Shown here in pieces: positions 9,357 to 31,398 of a DNA stretch of 33,818 nucleotides (the first letter of the stretch is position 1; each line of letters opens with the position of its first letter). The translations under genes were made by a program, and so were the position numbers. The notes under the pieces were generated by a model. That model did not search any database. It was not told the DNA's origin and was given only the letters and a program-made list of their open reading frames with translations. The stretch is from positions 1 to 33,818 of the forward strand of contig NZ_JAOULD010000015.1 of assembly GCF_029882185.1 (NCBI RefSeq), given 5' to 3'. This stretch comes from Candidatus Nitrosopumilus sp. Its GTDB lineage: Archaea; Thermoproteota; Nitrososphaeria; Nitrososphaerales; Nitrosopumilaceae.

Positions 9357-10403
9357 TTATTCTTCTACTATGAATAGACCTATCATTCCTGCATCTGCAT
9401 GACCTACGACATGGCAATGGAATAACCAAATTGCGGGTTTGTCGGGTTTGATAATGAATGATTCGAGTGTTCCCTGAACTAATGGGAATGTTTGAGAAGT
9501 TATTGTAGTCCCTCTCTCATTCGTGCTTGAAATCATTTTATTTCCATGTAGATGGAATGAATGGATTTGTTCACCTAGATTTGTTACATGAAATTCAACT
9601 GTTTCTCCAACTTTTGCCTTATAGACAGGCAATGTGTAATTGAACTGTGCAACAATCCCGTCTAGACCTTTCTCTGCAAAGATTTCTTCAAGAGCTTTTT
9701 CTCCCCCTGGAACCCCTTTACCGTTCATGATGAAGTATGGTGTAGGTCCTTTCTCCATTCTTTCAACATTGTGACCTATTTCTGACATTACGATTGGAAT
9801 ATGTCTGTCAATGTATGGTCTTGGAGGATTTCTTTCAATGATAATGTTGCCATAAAGACCTTGCAAAATATGATCTTTTATCCCAAGGCCTTCAGATGCT
9901 GCATGATCATGGAAAAATGTAGTTCCCCAAGTATTCACATTGTATTCATATGTCCATTCTTCACCCGGTGGAATCATTGAACCTGCTCCTACTCCTGTGA
10001 TGATATTGACAGGGGATCCATCATGTTTAGGATCATAGTCACTCATATGAGCATGAAAACTATGAGTCACATCATGATTGTTGATTACTCTCACTCGTAA
10101 TAGATCTCCTTGCTTTACCATTAGAGTTGGTGCTGGCACTGTTCCATTATATGTCCAAGCATGCCATACGGCATTGTCAGATATTTGAATGTCTGTTTGT
10201 TCAATTATCAATGTGTATTCTTTTACTGGTTGCTCTTCAGCTTCAGCAATTTGTGGTTGTAATTCAGATATCTTTTGAGTTTGAACATCATAGATAGTCT
10301 GTGTTTCTGTGTGTTCTGGTAAAAGTTGAATGTTCTCTATCACACCCACAATTAAAAATACAAGTACGATCGGTATTACTGCCAGGGCAAATTTTTTCTG
10401 CAT
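9357..10403 (-). CDS. Membrane-anchored two-domain multicopper oxidase
   Basis: 348 aa from the chosen ATG. A hydrophobic N-terminal helix (FALAVIPIVLVFLIVGVI) is followed by a spacer and two cupredoxin domains. Ligand clusters from that start: HSFHAH (His114, 117, 119), FFHDHA (His165, 167), HSFHLHG (His281, 284, 286) and HCHVVGHADAGM (His329, Cys330, His331, His335, Met340). Domain 1 has HDH rather than HCH, so the type-1 copper site is only in domain 2, as in small laccases. This argues against copper nitrite reductase, where type 1 is in domain 1. An outward-facing oxidase of copper or small reductants is likely. ATG 10403 is preferred over TTG 10427 because of TATA spacing. Confidence 0.88.
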   Translation of the reverse strand: MQKKFALAVIPIVLVFLIVGVIENIQLLPEHTETQTIYDVQTQKISELQPQIAEAEEQPVKEYTLIIEQTDIQISDNAVWHAWTYNGTVPAPTLMVKQGDLLRVRVINNHDVTHSFHAHMSDYDPKHDGSPVNIITGVGAGSMIPPGEEWTYEYNVNTWGTTFFHDHAASEGLGIKDHILQGLYGNIIIERNPPRPYIDRHIPIVMSEIGHNVERMEKGPTPYFIMNGKGVPGGEKALEEIFAEKGLDGIVAQFNYTLPVYKAKVGETVEFHVTNLGEQIHSFHLHGNKMISSTNERGTTITSQTFPLVQGTLESFIIKPDKPAIWLFHCHVVGHADAGMIGLFIVEE

Positions 10404-10425
10404 GAAAAAATCCTTTGTCTTATCC

Positions 10426-10432
10426 AATTAAA
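10426..10432 (-). promoter_or_regulatory. TATA-like box of the multicopper oxidase
   Basis: AATTAAA (TTTAATT toward the oxidase) lies about 26 nt ahead of ATG 10403. The 223-nt divergent region up to 10627 holds both promoters. I see no clear operator beyond a short GTATAC palindrome near 10567. Confidence 0.45.
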
Positions 10433-25423: not shown

Positions 25424-26449
25424 ATGAAAAGTCATTTGATTATTTCTGCCAGCATTGCAGTTATTCTCATTTCTGTATCTGGAATTGCTCTTAATTCTGA
25501 AAATTCTTTGAATGAAAATAAAATACGTATCGCATATTTTCCAAACATTGGCCATGCAATCCCGATAGTTGGAATTGAAAAAGGGTTTTTTGAAGCAAGT
25601 ATAGGAAACACCACAAAGATAGAAACCCGAGTTTTTGATAGTGGACCTCAGGCAATCGAATCACTTTTTGCCAATTCGATTGATGTTGCATATGTGGGTC
25701 CTGGCCCTGCAATAAACGGATTTCTAAATTCAGAAAATCACAATGTGAAGATTCTTGCAGGAGCTGCAAGTGGTGGTGCAAGCTTTATTGTTCATCCTTT
25801 ATCTGAAATAAACATTGCGTCTGATTTCGCAGGAAAAAAAATTGCCGCTCCTCAAATTGGAAACACACAAGATGTATCCTTGAGAAATTATTTGTCAGAA
25901 AATGGACTCAAACCAGCTGAAAAAGGTGGCTCTGTAATTATTTATAATATTCCAAACCCTGACATTTACACATTGTTTGTTAAGGGTGATATTGATGGTG
26001 CTTGGGTAGCGGAACCTTGGGCTACTATCTTAGAATATGAGTTGGATGGAAAACGATTGTTTCATGAAGAAGAATTATGGCCAAACAATGAGTTTGCATC
26101 TGTTCTTTTAATTGGCAATACAAATTTTGCAGAAAAAAACCCCACAATAATTAAAAATTTGTTGAAATCTAATAGCGACATTGCAGATTGGATTAATCAA
26201 AATCCTATGGAAACTAGAATTATTTTTAATAATTTTTTAAATTCTCATTTGGGCCAATCCTTATCTGATGATGTTGTAGATATTGCATTATCAAATCTTG
26301 TAATCACTGATGATCCTTTATCTGATTCTGTTCATTCATTTGCTGAGAAAGCAGATGCCTTAGGTTATCTTGGAAGAAATGGATATGATTTGTCTGGTAT
26401 TTTTTACTACTTTGATACAAATTCTATCAATGGAAATGATACTACATGA
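25424..26449 (+). CDS. ABC transporter substrate-binding protein (SsuA/TauA/NrtA type)
   Basis: 341 aa. An N-terminal signal or anchor (LIISASIAVILISVSGIAL, no lipobox Cys) is followed by a NMT1/SsuA-like two-lobed domain: IRIAYFPNIGHAIPIVGIE, FDSGPQAIESLFANSIDVAY, VGPGPAINGF, VKGDIDGAWVAEPWATIL. The family binds nitrate, sulfonates, taurine, thiamine precursors and similar small solutes. The exact ligand cannot be read from sequence. It overlaps the ATPase gene by 4 nt (ATGA), so the three-gene importer is one operon. Confidence 0.88.
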   Translation: MKSHLIISASIAVILISVSGIALNSENSLNENKIRIAYFPNIGHAIPIVGIEKGFFEASIGNTTKIETRVFDSGPQAIESLFANSIDVAYVGPGPAINGFLNSENHNVKILAGAASGGASFIVHPLSEINIASDFAGKKIAAPQIGNTQDVSLRNYLSENGLKPAEKGGSVIIYNIPNPDIYTLFVKGDIDGAWVAEPWATILEYELDGKRLFHEEELWPNNEFASVLLIGNTNFAEKNPTIIKNLLKSNSDIADWINQNPMETRIIFNNFLNSHLGQSLSDDVVDIALSNLVITDDPLSDSVHSFAEKADALGYLGRNGYDLSGIFYYFDTNSINGNDTT

Positions 26450-27210
26450 CCAAACTTGAGGCAAAAAATATTGTAAAATATTTCAGTCATGATTCTCACA
26501 AACTCAAAGCATTAGGTGGTGTGAATCTCAAAGTTGAGGCAGGAGACTTTGTGTGCTTGGTAGGTCCATCAGGTTGTGGCAAATCTACCTTTTTACGCAT
26601 AGTTGCAGGTCTGGAAAAGCCTGACGATGGTCAAATCTTGTTTGACGGTCATATGGTTTCAGAGACAGGTCCAGAGAGGATTATGGTGTTTCAGGAAGGG
26701 GCATTATTTCCATGGCTTAAGGTTCAGGATAATGTGGAATTTGGATTAAAGATGGCAGGTATTCCAAAAGAAGAGCGTGCCAAAATATCTCATCGGTATT
26801 TGGATATGATGCAATTGACCAAGTTTGCAGATTCCTATACTTATCAACTATCAACTGGAATGAAGCAGCGTGTTGCAATTGCAAGAGCACTTGTAATGGA
26901 TCCTGACGTATTGTTAATGGATGAGCCTTTTGCTGCACTTGATGCACAGACCCGTGATTTACTATTAGTTGAAATGCAATTAATTTGGGAGAAAACAAAA
27001 AAGACAATTTTGTTTGTAACTCATAGTGTTTCAGAAGCTGCAGTACTTGGAACCAAAGTTGCAATTTTCAGTAATCGCCCATCTGTAATTAAAAAAGAAG
27101 TTGACAATAATTTTCCAAGACCTAGAATAACTGAAGATGAATCATTGCTGAAATTTCAGCAAGACATCTTGGCAGAACTTAGACCCGAGGTAAAAAAAAG
27201 TAAAGAGTAA
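26446..27210 (+). CDS. ABC transporter ATP-binding protein (SsuB/TauB type)
   Basis: 254 aa. Walker A GPSGCGKST, Q-loop MVFQEGALFPWLKV, signature LSTGMKQRVAIARAL, Walker B VLLMDEPFAALD and switch histidine in FVTHSVSEA are all intact. It powers import of the solute captured by the preceding binding protein. ATG overlaps the upstream stop; the permease follows after 5 nt. Confidence 0.94.
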   Translation: MTKLEAKNIVKYFSHDSHKLKALGGVNLKVEAGDFVCLVGPSGCGKSTFLRIVAGLEKPDDGQILFDGHMVSETGPERIMVFQEGALFPWLKVQDNVEFGLKMAGIPKEERAKISHRYLDMMQLTKFADSYTYQLSTGMKQRVAIARALVMDPDVLLMDEPFAALDAQTRDLLLVEMQLIWEKTKKTILFVTHSVSEAAVLGTKVAIFSNRPSVIKKEVDNNFPRPRITEDESLLKFQQDILAELRPEVKKSKE

Positions 27211-27215
27211 CAATC

Positions 27216-27974
27216 ATGGCAAAAAATTACACGTTTCATAGAATTGCATTTTATATTGGAATAGTAGCAGTTTGGCAAATCATTGCAATGCTTGGAGTTT
27301 GGCCTGAAAACATTTTCCCATCTCCATATGAGGTTGCAGAAGATTTGGCATATGGTGCAGCTGATGGTAGTTTGTTGTATGGAATAGCAACTAGTGTGTG
27401 GAGATTATCTATTGGTTTGGCAATTGCAATTGGTGGAGGAATTGTACTTGGAATATTTATGGCAAGAGTTGAGGTGATTAACCAAACTGTCGGTTCTCTA
27501 GTTCTGGGTTTACAATCAATTCCTTCTATTGCTTGGGTGCCTTTGGCAATACTTTGGTTTGGTTTAACTGATGGGGGGATAGTTTTTGTCACTGCAATTG
27601 GCGCTATTTTTGCAGTAACAATCAACACCTATACTGGAGTCAAAAACATCAATCCTCATTTTATTGAGGCAGCCAGAAACATGGGTGCAAAGGGCAGCCA
27701 GTTGATCACTTCGGTTTTGATTCCAGCAGCTTTTCCATACATGATTTCTGGCTTTAAACAAGGCTGGGCTTTTGCATGGAGGGGTGTAATTGGTGCTGAA
27801 ATCTTGTTTTCATTCCTGGGATTGGGCTTTTTGCTTAATACTGGTCGTTCTCTAAATGATGTTTCGCAAGTCATTGGAATAATGATTGTGATCATGGGAA
27901 TCGGTCTGGCAGTTGATGGTGTGATTTTCAAGAGATTGGAAAACAAAGTAATGTCTCGTTGGGGTTTGAGATAA
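27216..27974 (+). CDS. ABC transporter permease (SsuC/TauC type)
   Basis: 252 aa with about six hydrophobic helices. The cytoplasmic EAA loop that docks the ATPase is EAARNMGAKGSQLITSVLIP. It ends the importer operon; a T-run at 27976-27981 right after the stop may terminate it. Substrate unknown, as for the binding protein. Confidence 0.92.
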   Translation: MAKNYTFHRIAFYIGIVAVWQIIAMLGVWPENIFPSPYEVAEDLAYGAADGSLLYGIATSVWRLSIGLAIAIGGGIVLGIFMARVEVINQTVGSLVLGLQSIPSIAWVPLAILWFGLTDGGIVFVTAIGAIFAVTINTYTGVKNINPHFIEAARNMGAKGSQLITSVLIPAAFPYMISGFKQGWAFAWRGVIGAEILFSFLGLGFLLNTGRSLNDVSQVIGIMIVIMGIGLAVDGVIFKRLENKVMSRWGLR

Positions 27975-28095: not shown

Positions 28096-31000
28096 ATGAA
28101 ACGAACACAAACAATGCTAATAACGACAGTTATACTTTCAATTGCATTGACATCTGTTTTTGCATTTGATTTTAAAAACAACAACGCTGACACTTTAGAT
28201 ACTCAAATTCCATTTGCAGCTGAAGCAAAACCTGGTGATCAACATAATATCACGATGGAGGCTGTAGCAATGCCTGATGGTTTGTATGCATACAGAATGG
28301 TGTCATACAATATCAATGGTGGTGATGACTTGGTCGGAACTCAATATTCTGGCAAACCCTCAATCCCAGGACCTACACTCATTTTGACTGAAGGTGATGA
28401 GGCAAATGTTACTCTTATCAACAGTGCTTGTGAAAACAACTTTGTTGATGGTCCATCACACCCACTCGGTGTACCAACATTTTCTGAAACATCTCTGCTA
28501 GGAATTCATGTACATGGTGTTCATTATGACATTAGTGATGATGCAACATATTCAAGAATGAACATGGCAGAAAGTTCAGGAGCTCAATGTGGTGGTGATA
28601 TTGAATATAGTTGGATAGCTGCTCCAGGAACCGCCGGTGCGTGGCCATACCATGATCATATGTTTTCCATCAACGAAGTTGGTGCAGAAGAATTAGGTCT
28701 ATTTGGCACTGTGATCATTAATCCTGCTAATGGTAAGGTTAATGGTCTGGTAGATGATCAAACCGGAGAAGTAAAACAAGTCAATATTGACAAAATTGAA
28801 AAAGAATTTGTTCTATGGATGGTTTCATCTGAAACTCTTGGTAGAAGTATTTTCTATGGAAATGAAATTGATTATGATACTTCTGACTATTCTGGTGATT
28901 CTGGAATTAGAGAAACAGCCCTTTGGACAAATCCAAATCTAGTTGCAACCGATGGCAAAATTTACCGATTCCATGTAATGGGATTAGGTGATGAAGTTCA
29001 TGCATTTCATTTACATGGACACAGATGGACTGAAGACATTCATAAAAAAGCGTCTGAAGAGGATATCATCGATGTAAAGGAAATTGTTCCATTACAACGT
29101 CATACTTTCCTTGTTCAAGCAAGTGATAATGATGCTGCAGATTCAACTCATGATGATCCTGAAGGATGGATGTATCATTGTCACATAACAGATCACATGG
29201 AACAGGGAATGTCTGGAATGATGAATGTCTTACCAGAATACCAAAGTGATGATCTTCCAGTAATCGGTGCAACATTCACTTTAAGTGATGAACCAGGACT
29301 CTGGATGAAAACACTTGATGCAGGTATTGCTGATGAATTAGATAACTATCTTGCAGATAAAATTGGTCTTCAAATAGATGCAAAAGACGGTACAGGATTC
29401 CCACTAGGTTACATTAGTGATGCTCTAGAAGCAGCTGTACCGGGTGCAGGAACTGATTTCTCTAATTCAGAAGGACGTTCTCTTGCAGTAATTAATCTTG
29501 GTGAAACAGTCAACTTTGGAATGAAAGATTCACAAACAAAACACACAATCACCACATTGATTTATCCTCAGGGTGCTGAACTTTTGGGTGGGAATGGAAT
29601 TCTAAATGCTGTTCCTGGTCTAAGTCACTTTGATCAACAATTAGGAATTAGAGGTTCTACTCTTTTGACTGATAAATCTGGTGTTCCAACGGGATTAGAT
29701 GAACCTGGACTGTATGTCTTTGTATGTAAAATACATCCTTACATGTTCAGTGCAGTAATCGTAGATGATCCTGAAACTAATCTTTACATCGAAGGAGATC
29801 TTAACAAACCATTCCCATTACTTGACTTGTCTGAAAACCTTGTGGTTTTAACAAGAACTGGTACTGGTGTTGAATTTGGTGAATTAGGTACTACTTTCCC
29901 AACAGTTGTTCCACCTACCCATGATCTTGCAAAATCACTTCTCACAACATTCTATGTGATAACTGATCCAAACAATTGGAGAGATTATCAACAAGATGAT
30001 TGGAACATCAATTTGCCACCTGTATTGGTCACTACTAATACAGAAGAATTGGCAGTTGCATTGCCTTACAGTACTGCAACAACACAATTTGCTGCAGGCG
30101 TATTGGGATTGACAAATTCTACAGGTAATGGACCAACACTTGCTCAAATCGCAGGTCTTGAAATGGATAAGGTTATTCCAAATCCTGAAGTAGAGGATCC
30201 TGAAATTGATGGAATTGGTGAGGTTTGGGTAAATACCCAATTTGAGACAACACTAAACAAGAATCATCCTGGAACTCCATCAGATAAACCAGGTACAATT
30301 ACTGTAATTGACACAGGCAAATGGAATATTGAAAGGAAGATTGCACTTCCTGAAATCAATATGAATCACCCACACAACATGTGGACTGACACCAAAAACG
30401 AAGTGATCTATCAGACACAATGGTTTGGAAATGAAATGGCAGTAATTGATAGAGAAAGCGGTGAATTAATCAAAGAAGTGTTCACTGGACAATCTCCATC
30501 ACATGTCATGACCTCTCCAGCTACTGATAGTATCTATATCGCTGTAAATGGTGAAGAAACTGTAAACGAATTTGATTCTGTCACATATGAGATGACAAGA
30601 CAACTTTCAACAGGATTCCGTTCACATCCTCATGGTCATTGGGTAAGTAGCTCTGGTCAATATCTTGTAACTCCTGACTTTATTGGACTGAAAGCATCAA
30701 TTCTTGATCTTGAATCTGGTTCTGCAATTAGTTCAGACAATGTTTTGTTTGGACCTATTGCAACTGGTATGAAAGGTGACGAATCTGTATTCTATACTGC
30801 TGACTTCTTGGGCAATTCAATGACTGCAATAGATCCATCTGATGGTGAAATTCTCAGTAACATTGATTGGCTAGACCATGGACTAATAGGACTTCCTATT
30901 CAAACACCTATCAGTCCAGATGATCAATACATGGTAACAGCACTCACACTTGGTGGAAAAATCGGTGTAGTGGATGTTTCTTCATCTAATCCTGAAGATC

Positions 31001-31398
31001 ATTTTGTTACTGCAATCTTAGATTGTGATCCTGGATGTCATGGTGTACAGTGGGGAGCTAAAGATGGCGGTGGATACTATGCATATGTATCCAGCAAATT
31101 CTCAAATGTCATGATAGTGGTGGATCCTAACCCTGATGACGATGTTGAAACAGATGATGCAGAAATTGCTGGAAGAGTACTTCTTGCAGACAATGATGCT
31201 GATTCTGATGACCGAGTCATTGGATATGAGGGATTTGGAGGACAAGGTGTTCTTGCAATTCCTAATGTCTATGAAGGTTGGATTCAAAACACTGTAGATA
31301 CTTGTGATGTGCCTGGAAATGGTAACGGTCCTTGTGGTAAAGAAATCAAAGATTTCTTAAAAGACCTAACTAACGACCAACAAGATCCCCTAGATTAA
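28096..31398 (+). CDS. Secreted multicopper oxidase-cupredoxin-beta-propeller fusion (1100 aa)
   Basis: Signal peptide (LITTVILSIALTSVFAF). Residues ~50-385 form a multicopper oxidase: His138/140/143, His186/188, His302/305/307/309, then HCHITDH (361-367) and Met372, giving a trinuclear site and a type-1 site. Residues ~460-560 form a separate cupredoxin with His483, Cys544, His547 and Met550. Residues ~730-1060 are a YVTN-like beta-propeller (ITVIDTGKWNIERKIALPE, GNEMAVIDRESGELI, SMTAIDPSDGEIL). Histidines recur about once per blade (758/760, 803, 844/846/848, 928, 982). An electron-transferring periplasmic oxidoreductase is likely. Nitrite or other nitrogen-oxide chemistry is possible in this organism, but the substrate is unknown. 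It has its own promoter and a T-rich terminator. Confidence 0.9.
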   Translation: MKRTQTMLITTVILSIALTSVFAFDFKNNNADTLDTQIPFAAEAKPGDQHNITMEAVAMPDGLYAYRMVSYNINGGDDLVGTQYSGKPSIPGPTLILTEGDEANVTLINSACENNFVDGPSHPLGVPTFSETSLLGIHVHGVHYDISDDATYSRMNMAESSGAQCGGDIEYSWIAAPGTAGAWPYHDHMFSINEVGAEELGLFGTVIINPANGKVNGLVDDQTGEVKQVNIDKIEKEFVLWMVSSETLGRSIFYGNEIDYDTSDYSGDSGIRETALWTNPNLVATDGKIYRFHVMGLGDEVHAFHLHGHRWTEDIHKKASEEDIIDVKEIVPLQRHTFLVQASDNDAADSTHDDPEGWMYHCHITDHMEQGMSGMMNVLPEYQSDDLPVIGATFTLSDEPGLWMKTLDAGIADELDNYLADKIGLQIDAKDGTGFPLGYISDALEAAVPGAGTDFSNSEGRSLAVINLGETVNFGMKDSQTKHTITTLIYPQGAELLGGNGILNAVPGLSHFDQQLGIRGSTLLTDKSGVPTGLDEPGLYVFVCKIHPYMFSAVIVDDPETNLYIEGDLNKPFPLLDLSENLVVLTRTGTGVEFGELGTTFPTVVPPTHDLAKSLLTTFYVITDPNNWRDYQQDDWNINLPPVLVTTNTEELAVALPYSTATTQFAAGVLGLTNSTGNGPTLAQIAGLEMDKVIPNPEVEDPEIDGIGEVWVNTQFETTLNKNHPGTPSDKPGTITVIDTGKWNIERKIALPEINMNHPHNMWTDTKNEVIYQTQWFGNEMAVIDRESGELIKEVFTGQSPSHVMTSPATDSIYIAVNGEETVNEFDSVTYEMTRQLSTGFRSHPHGHWVSSSGQYLVTPDFIGLKASILDLESGSAISSDNVLFGPIATGMKGDESVFYTADFLGNSMTAIDPSDGEILSNIDWLDHGLIGLPIQTPISPDDQYMVTALTLGGKIGVVDVSSSNPEDHFVTAILDCDPGCHGVQWGAKDGGGYYAYVSSKFSNVMIVVDPNPDDDVETDDAEIAGRVLLADNDADSDDRVIGYEGFGGQGVLAIPNVYEGWIQNTVDTCDVPGNGNGPCGKEIKDFLKDLTNDQQDPLD

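Follow-up and report, generated by a model that had tools for sequence, protein, structure and literature searches.

The window analysed here, a stretch of 33,818 nucleotides from Candidatus Nitrosopumilus sp., encodes a genuine fusion protein: behind a signal segment it carries a complete two-domain multicopper oxidase (MCO), followed by a type-1 cupredoxin and a seven-bladed beta-propeller. The family to which it belongs is widespread among ammonia- and methane-oxidising bacteria and archaea and constitutes a conserved, cross-domain copper protein system. Four specific histidines of the propeller are fixed across archaea and bacteria, which is well beyond chance given a mean top-letter frequency per alignment column of only 0.60.

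Domain architecture and copper ligands

The fusion gene and its domains are located as follows:

28096..31398 (+): MCO-cupredoxin-propeller fusion protein, 1100 aa (uninterrupted ORF, Pfam, structure model)
28096..28164 (+): hydrophobic N-terminal signal or anchor segment, residues 1-23 (sequence; model helix 2-21)
28237..28725 (+): MCO domain 1, approximately residues 48-210, with half of the trinuclear ligands (Pfam, motifs, model)
28507-28515 (+): ligand motif HVHG of MCO domain 1
28651-28659 (+): ligand motif YHDH of MCO domain 1
28789..29247 (+): MCO domain 2, approximately residues 232-384, type-1 site and other half of the trinuclear ligands
28999-29022 (+): ligand motif HAFHLHGH of MCO domain 2
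29170-29211 (+): ligand motif MYHCHITDHMEQGM of MCO domain 2
29278..29775 (+): separate cupredoxin, approximately residues 395-560, type-1 ligands H483, C544, H547 and M550 (alignment, model)
30199..31293 (+): seven-bladed beta-propeller, residues 702-1066 (Pfam, models, fold matches)

Two Pfam models, Cu-oxidase_2 (1.8e-13) and Cu-oxidase_3 (2.7e-4), matched the first third of the protein over their cutoffs, and a YncE-like propeller was weakly matched at residues 756-836 (E 0.0011); with 18.9 bits the protein missed the gathering score of the YncE-like model PF21783 (27.1), the fold class being nevertheless the same. The ligand set of the MCO is complete, with HVHG and YHDH in domain 1 and HAFHLHGH and YHCHITDHMEQGM in domain 2, and the arrangement is that of a two-domain MCO, with HxH pairs in both cupredoxin domains and an HCH with an axial Met. 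In the separate cupredoxin, each of the four type-1 ligands is kept in approximately 97% of relatives. A search of PHROGs was without match. The earlier note had proposed that one exported chain joins a complete MCO, a type-1 copper domain and a propeller, and this was borne out by the ORF, the Pfam matches, the ligand motifs and the seven-blade model. Among solved structures, the MCO part is closest to two-domain (small) laccases such as 6rhq and 3cg8 (2e-16 to 1e-12), which likewise have the type-1 Cys only in domain 2 but are without the cupredoxin-propeller extension.

Conserved histidines and fold of the propeller

The AlphaFold model of the fusion protein (42 sequences) had a pLDDT of 82.3 and a pTM of 0.84, and that of the propeller alone 92.7 and 0.93, respectively. 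The strand order in the model corresponds to seven blades, the first of which is completed by the C-terminal strand. Conservation was assessed over 103 aligned members of the family and 15 representatives of less than 60% identity, and the residues of interest are located as follows:

30373..30375 (+): H760, invariant (alignment; model strand 759-764)
30502..30504 (+): H803, invariant (alignment; model strand 801-806)
30631..30639 (+): H846 and H848 (alignment)
30901..30903 (+): Q936, near-invariant, at the site where other blades carry His (alignment)
31039..31041 (+): H982 (alignment; model strand 981-989)

H760 and H803 were present in 103/103 members, H982 in 102/103 and H846 in 100/103, and these four are kept in 14-15 of the 15 representatives. 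H848 is mostly kept (90/103), whereas H758 (33/103), H844 (40/103) and H928 (3/103) are not conserved. The equivalent positions of the remaining blades are A889, Q936 and either Q1050 or Q715; His is found at four of the seven blades, and the others have Ala or Gln almost without exception. The histidines listed in the earlier note do occur in the protein where it placed them, but its picture of one histidine per blade stands only in part: conservation holds for H760, H803, H846 and H982 and for the most part for H848, and fails for H758, H844 and H928.

In the AlphaFold model, H760, H803, H846, A889, Q936 and H982 lie among the opening residues of strand 1 in successive blades. The first strand of a YVTN/WD40-type blade is the innermost, and the strand starts ring one mouth of the channel. 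The model thus does not put H760, H803, H846 and H982 on outer loops, as each of them opens the innermost strand of its blade. Going by the model, an axial cluster of conserved propeller residues is plausible, as is a third metal site in the propeller, and we infer that the conserved histidines may converge on one point. The four histidines are also kept in cupredoxin-propellers of 710-717 aa that are without an MCO, encoded at four loci of a separate archaeal branch (L016, L017, L018 and L037; families f2/f3 of the order). These shorter proteins have additional histidines at sites equivalent to 777, 862, 866 and 897, making a larger His cluster.

The closest relative in fold is the YVTN/YncE-type S-layer protein 1l0q (Z 36.8-37.8), which is also the closest in sequence (7e-33 with the family profile), followed by lactonases (Z ~33), the hydrazine synthase beta subunit (31-32) and NosZ (30-32); a Foldseek search also matched NirN. 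Unlike the fusion protein, YVTN/YncE propellers including 1l0q have neither such a fixed His set nor fused copper domains. The beta subunit of hydrazine synthase (5c2v_B), also an enzyme of the nitrogen cycle, shares the propeller fold and a profile match of 2.7e-16 but is without copper domains, and the cutoff of its model NF052340 (560 bits) was missed more than tenfold, the best relative tested scoring 52 bits. SBP56/methanethiol oxidase was not among the Pfam matches of the fusion protein at E 0.1; it was also not among the fold matches listed, an absence that carries no weight. The fold alone is compatible with a metal enzyme and with a scaffold alike.

The analogy with nitrous oxide reductase drawn in the earlier note holds for the general plan, since NosZ and L-NosZ (NF052460) likewise combine a seven-bladed propeller with a copper cupredoxin and supply His from several blades, but it fails in detail. 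In NosZ of clades I/II, the cupredoxin is C-terminal and its CuA site holds a Cys pair, whereas the fusion protein has the single C544 in place of such a pair and its cupredoxin lies on the other side, N-terminal to the propeller. CuZ has seven His ligands against four near-invariant His, with H848 as a fifth, and the MCO partner is a property of the fusion family. The scores also fell far short of the NosZ and L-NosZ cutoffs: there was no match to TIGR04244/TIGR04246 (NosZ) at E 0.01, a true NosZ scoring 1128 bits on the NosZ NCBIfam model; the fusion protein reached 27.4 bits of the 700 required for NF052460, weak matches overall being 27-60 bits; and the profile comparison with S. meliloti NosZ was not significant (probability 9.9%). 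Membership in NosZ or L-NosZ was rejected on these profile scores, and the fusion protein is, judging from its sequence, not a nitrous oxide reductase. A His-to-His mapping on NosZ is ambiguous because of the repeat symmetry of the propeller, the structure order and the profile alignment being one blade apart. L-NosZ sequences had no match in 301 genomes of the Chloroflexi group, and a nos_propeller search of ten family-bearing genomes gave no match anywhere, but the controls were likewise silent and this negative therefore carries no weight.

Other propeller proteins were seen alongside the family. On contig C58 of the same genome (L039:856-2343), an exported protein has an N-terminal cupredoxin and a YVTN propeller with PHN, PHN, HHG and PHG at successive blades; it scored 76 bits against L-NosZ (cutoff 700), above the fusion protein, and its full cupredoxin form looks rare in relatives. 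At L157:3984-5465 (-), a 494-aa YVTN propeller lies directly beside the L014 cupredoxin-propeller, a member of the family, and scored 140 bits for hydrazine synthase beta and 119 bits for L-NosZ, both far below cutoff.

Gene arrangement, distribution and the link to MCO3

The MCO accompanies the propeller in several arrangements. Nitrosopumilus has one chain with complete ligands (4/4 full-length named loci), and methanotroph-type genomes have a complete two-domain MCO gene directly upstream of the cupredoxin-propeller gene (7 pairs). The upstream neighbour in Nitrospira is a three-domain MCO; that it might be a fusion of both split MCO genes was considered and rejected, its motifs matching an ordinary three-domain MCO. 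Two adjacent genes, A and B, together encode the MCO in Nitrosomonas and Nitrososphaeraceae. Gene A has kept the domain-1 ligands and lost those of domain 2, and gene B encodes a degenerate domain 1 and an intact domain 2, followed by the cupredoxin and propeller. Strict complementary loss of ligands was found in 39 of the 46 A/B pairs, the remainder being one motif short or truncated, and none of the 46 has both MCO halves intact in one chain. One example is given here:

L073, 5827-9653: tandem pair with complementary ligand loss (38 similar loci)

The trinuclear site of two-domain MCOs is shared by neighbouring chains, one contributing its domain 1 and the other its domain 2. On this basis, A and B are expected to depend on one another, and complementary ligand loss over two genes predicts a heteromeric MCO, an unusual arrangement. 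The fusion protein falls among other Nitrosopumilaceae in the propeller tree, and the methanotroph branch is their neighbour there, support being modest (80-89).

No neighbours beyond the MCO recurred in the loci read. An SsuA/nitrate-type ABC transporter is encoded by three genes directly upstream of the fusion gene (25424-27974, +), and a convergent gene for an MFS protein lies downstream. The neighbourhood with the upstream ABC transporter genes is kept in the close Nitrosopumilus relatives L045 and L046 but not in L047/L048, and hence it was not counted in the system. A second, ordinary two-domain MCO of 356 aa is encoded at 9357-10427 (-) and shares 26% identity with the MCO region of the fusion protein.

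The full-length protein was found in 4/61 near genomes, the source genome not counted. Named genomes were also scanned and yielded 273 relatives; hosts among the best 80 of these, which were retained, include archaea (Nitrosopumilus, Nitrosocosmicus and other Nitrososphaeraceae), bacterial nitrifiers (many Nitrosomonas including N. europaea, and Nitrospira), methanotrophs (Methylomicrobium, Methylocystis and Methylothermaceae) and single bins of Rokubacteria, Chloroflexi and Acidobacteria. Within the archaeal class, 42/400 genomes were positive (E < 1e-20) and the family is therefore an accessory trait in archaea. Nitrosomonadaceae were positive in 87/125 genomes, often with two paralogues of ~930 and 615 aa. 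The 147 genomes of Nitrospiraceae comprised 33 with the family and amoA, 14 with the family only, 13 with amoA only and 87 with neither, corresponding to 33/46 genomes with amoA versus 14/101 without detected amoA (Fisher p 7.8e-12, odds ratio 15.8, ancestry and missing contigs being ignored). An amoA search of 22 family-bearing genomes had no match even in N. europaea, and single amoA negatives in drafts therefore mean little, drafts being prone to lose amo contigs.

The archaeal version appears to match the published MCO3 lineage, going by homology and by synteny at the Nitrosocosmicus-type locus L156, where an A/B pair is followed by ferredoxin-like and small monooxygenase-like genes. The same order, an MCO3 pair with ferredoxin and monooxygenase, is given for NFRAN_2029-2033 of N. 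franklandianus in the source paper, which also places the two MCO3 genes (NFRAN_2029/2030) among the most induced in biofilms of this species and attributes conversion of hydroxylamine to HNO to MCO4a of N. maritimus (PMC12448741). The fusion protein is homologous to the pair over the MCO, cupredoxin and propeller, but is one chain with a complete MCO, whereas MCO3 is described there as two copies; the text of that paper names neither the cupredoxin, the propeller nor the complementary ligand loss (PMC12448741). No description combining MCO and propeller with Nitrosomonas or comammox was found in the open-access full-text literature. The system is hence partly known as MCO3, and its architecture is apparently undescribed as far as the open-access literature was searched. 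Two MCO genes of N. europaea, which may or may not be the A/B pair, are strongly co-induced late in phage infection (LFC 6.16 and 6.14; PMC13356812).

The interest that the earlier note saw in the protein for unknown steps of archaeal ammonia oxidation finds no support in this distribution: the family is patchy in Nitrosopumilus, most genomes of which are without it, and common in ammonia-oxidising bacteria, and N. viennensis and N. maritimus both lack MCO3 (PMC12448741). A universal role in archaeal ammonia oxidation cannot be assigned to it.

Proposed function and alternatives

Our favoured reading, held tentatively, is an exported copper oxidase system that likely oxidises a reactive compound arising on the side when ammonia or methane is oxidised. 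The four His and the Gln would be clustered on one face of the propeller around its axis and would most likely bind a metal, copper being favoured, or a small substrate. The type-1 cupredoxin would take electrons from the propeller or an external donor and pass them to the MCO, where they would enter at the type-1 copper and be used by the trinuclear centre to reduce O2 to water. The most likely job would be the extra-membrane oxidation of hydroxylamine, HNO or NO, serving as protection and not as an obligatory energy path. A reactive nitrogen compound is the favoured substrate; this substrate, the propeller metal and the direction of electron flow are what we infer.

Such a system is supported by the complete ligands of the MCO and cupredoxin, by the four His and one Gln near-invariant at equivalent blade positions, by the recurring MCO partner, whether fused, two-domain, three-domain or split A/B, by the amoA association in Nitrospiraceae and the 87/125 positive Nitrosomonadaceae genomes, and by the match to the biofilm-induced MCO3. 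That an MCO and a cupredoxin keep company with the propeller across lineages and gene arrangements is in keeping with a path for electrons. Counter-evidence comes from five short cupredoxin-propeller loci (L100, L106, L114, L120 and L123) with no MCO gene within the flank examined, and from the 14 Nitrospiraceae genomes with the family and no detected amoA and the 13 with the reverse. The most specific version, a propeller forming a third, hitherto undescribed copper active site of four His and Gln that oxidises hydroxylamine, HNO or NO, is wired by the cupredoxin to the O2-reducing MCO and is common to AOA, AOB, comammox Nitrospira and methanotrophs, we consider unlikely.

The MCO might instead do all the chemistry, acting like a laccase on cell-surface or matrix components, with the propeller as a binding or assembly scaffold and its histidines structural, which we regard as somewhat unlikely. 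WD40 blades carry Gly-His, a model for structural blade His, and the conserved polar loop residues N818 and N1004 could hydrogen-bond the histidines. Many non-metal propellers are among the best folds (the S-layer YVTN protein 1l0q, Z 36.8, and the lactonases), and the authors of the N. franklandianus study propose surface modification for the biofilm-induced MCO3 (PMC12448741). Structural His would however be expected in most blades, whereas four particular blades keep it and the others have Ala or Gln, and the cupredoxin-propeller also occurs without a fused MCO. That the family is found mostly in copper-monooxygenase organisms would suit copper handling, as an outward Cu(I) oxidase or a copper buffer for hosts needing much monooxygenase copper, and other AOA MCOs do respond to copper limitation (PMC7785015); yet the copper-responsive archaeal MCOs are MCO1 and MCO4, not MCO3 (PMC7785015), no copper transport gene recurs beside the family in the loci read, and we hold this role to be distinctly improbable.

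It is very improbable that the protein reduces nitrogen oxides (N2O or NO) at a catalytic copper site in its propeller, as NosZ does. This reading can draw on the shared seven-bladed fold class and the weak L-NosZ matches, but these lie far below the 700-bit cutoff, the NosZ profile comparison was not significant, the cupredoxin is an N-terminal single-Cys type-1 domain and not CuA, the histidines are four, and a reductase would hardly be expected to have an O2-reducing MCO as its partner. Moreover, N. maritimus reduces N2O (PMC11408285) yet is without MCO3 (PMC12448741).

Hydroxylamine, HNO and NO have to be dealt with by methanotrophs and by aerobic nitrifiers, bacterial and archaeal alike, and several of the enzymes involved are unassigned. 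A shared copper system in which the His cluster is fixed and an oxidase partner recurs offers a concrete and testable candidate for such steps, and N. europaea carries the family, which makes a genetic test possible. This makes the family a good candidate for one of the copper enzymes yet to be assigned in ammonia and methane oxidisers.
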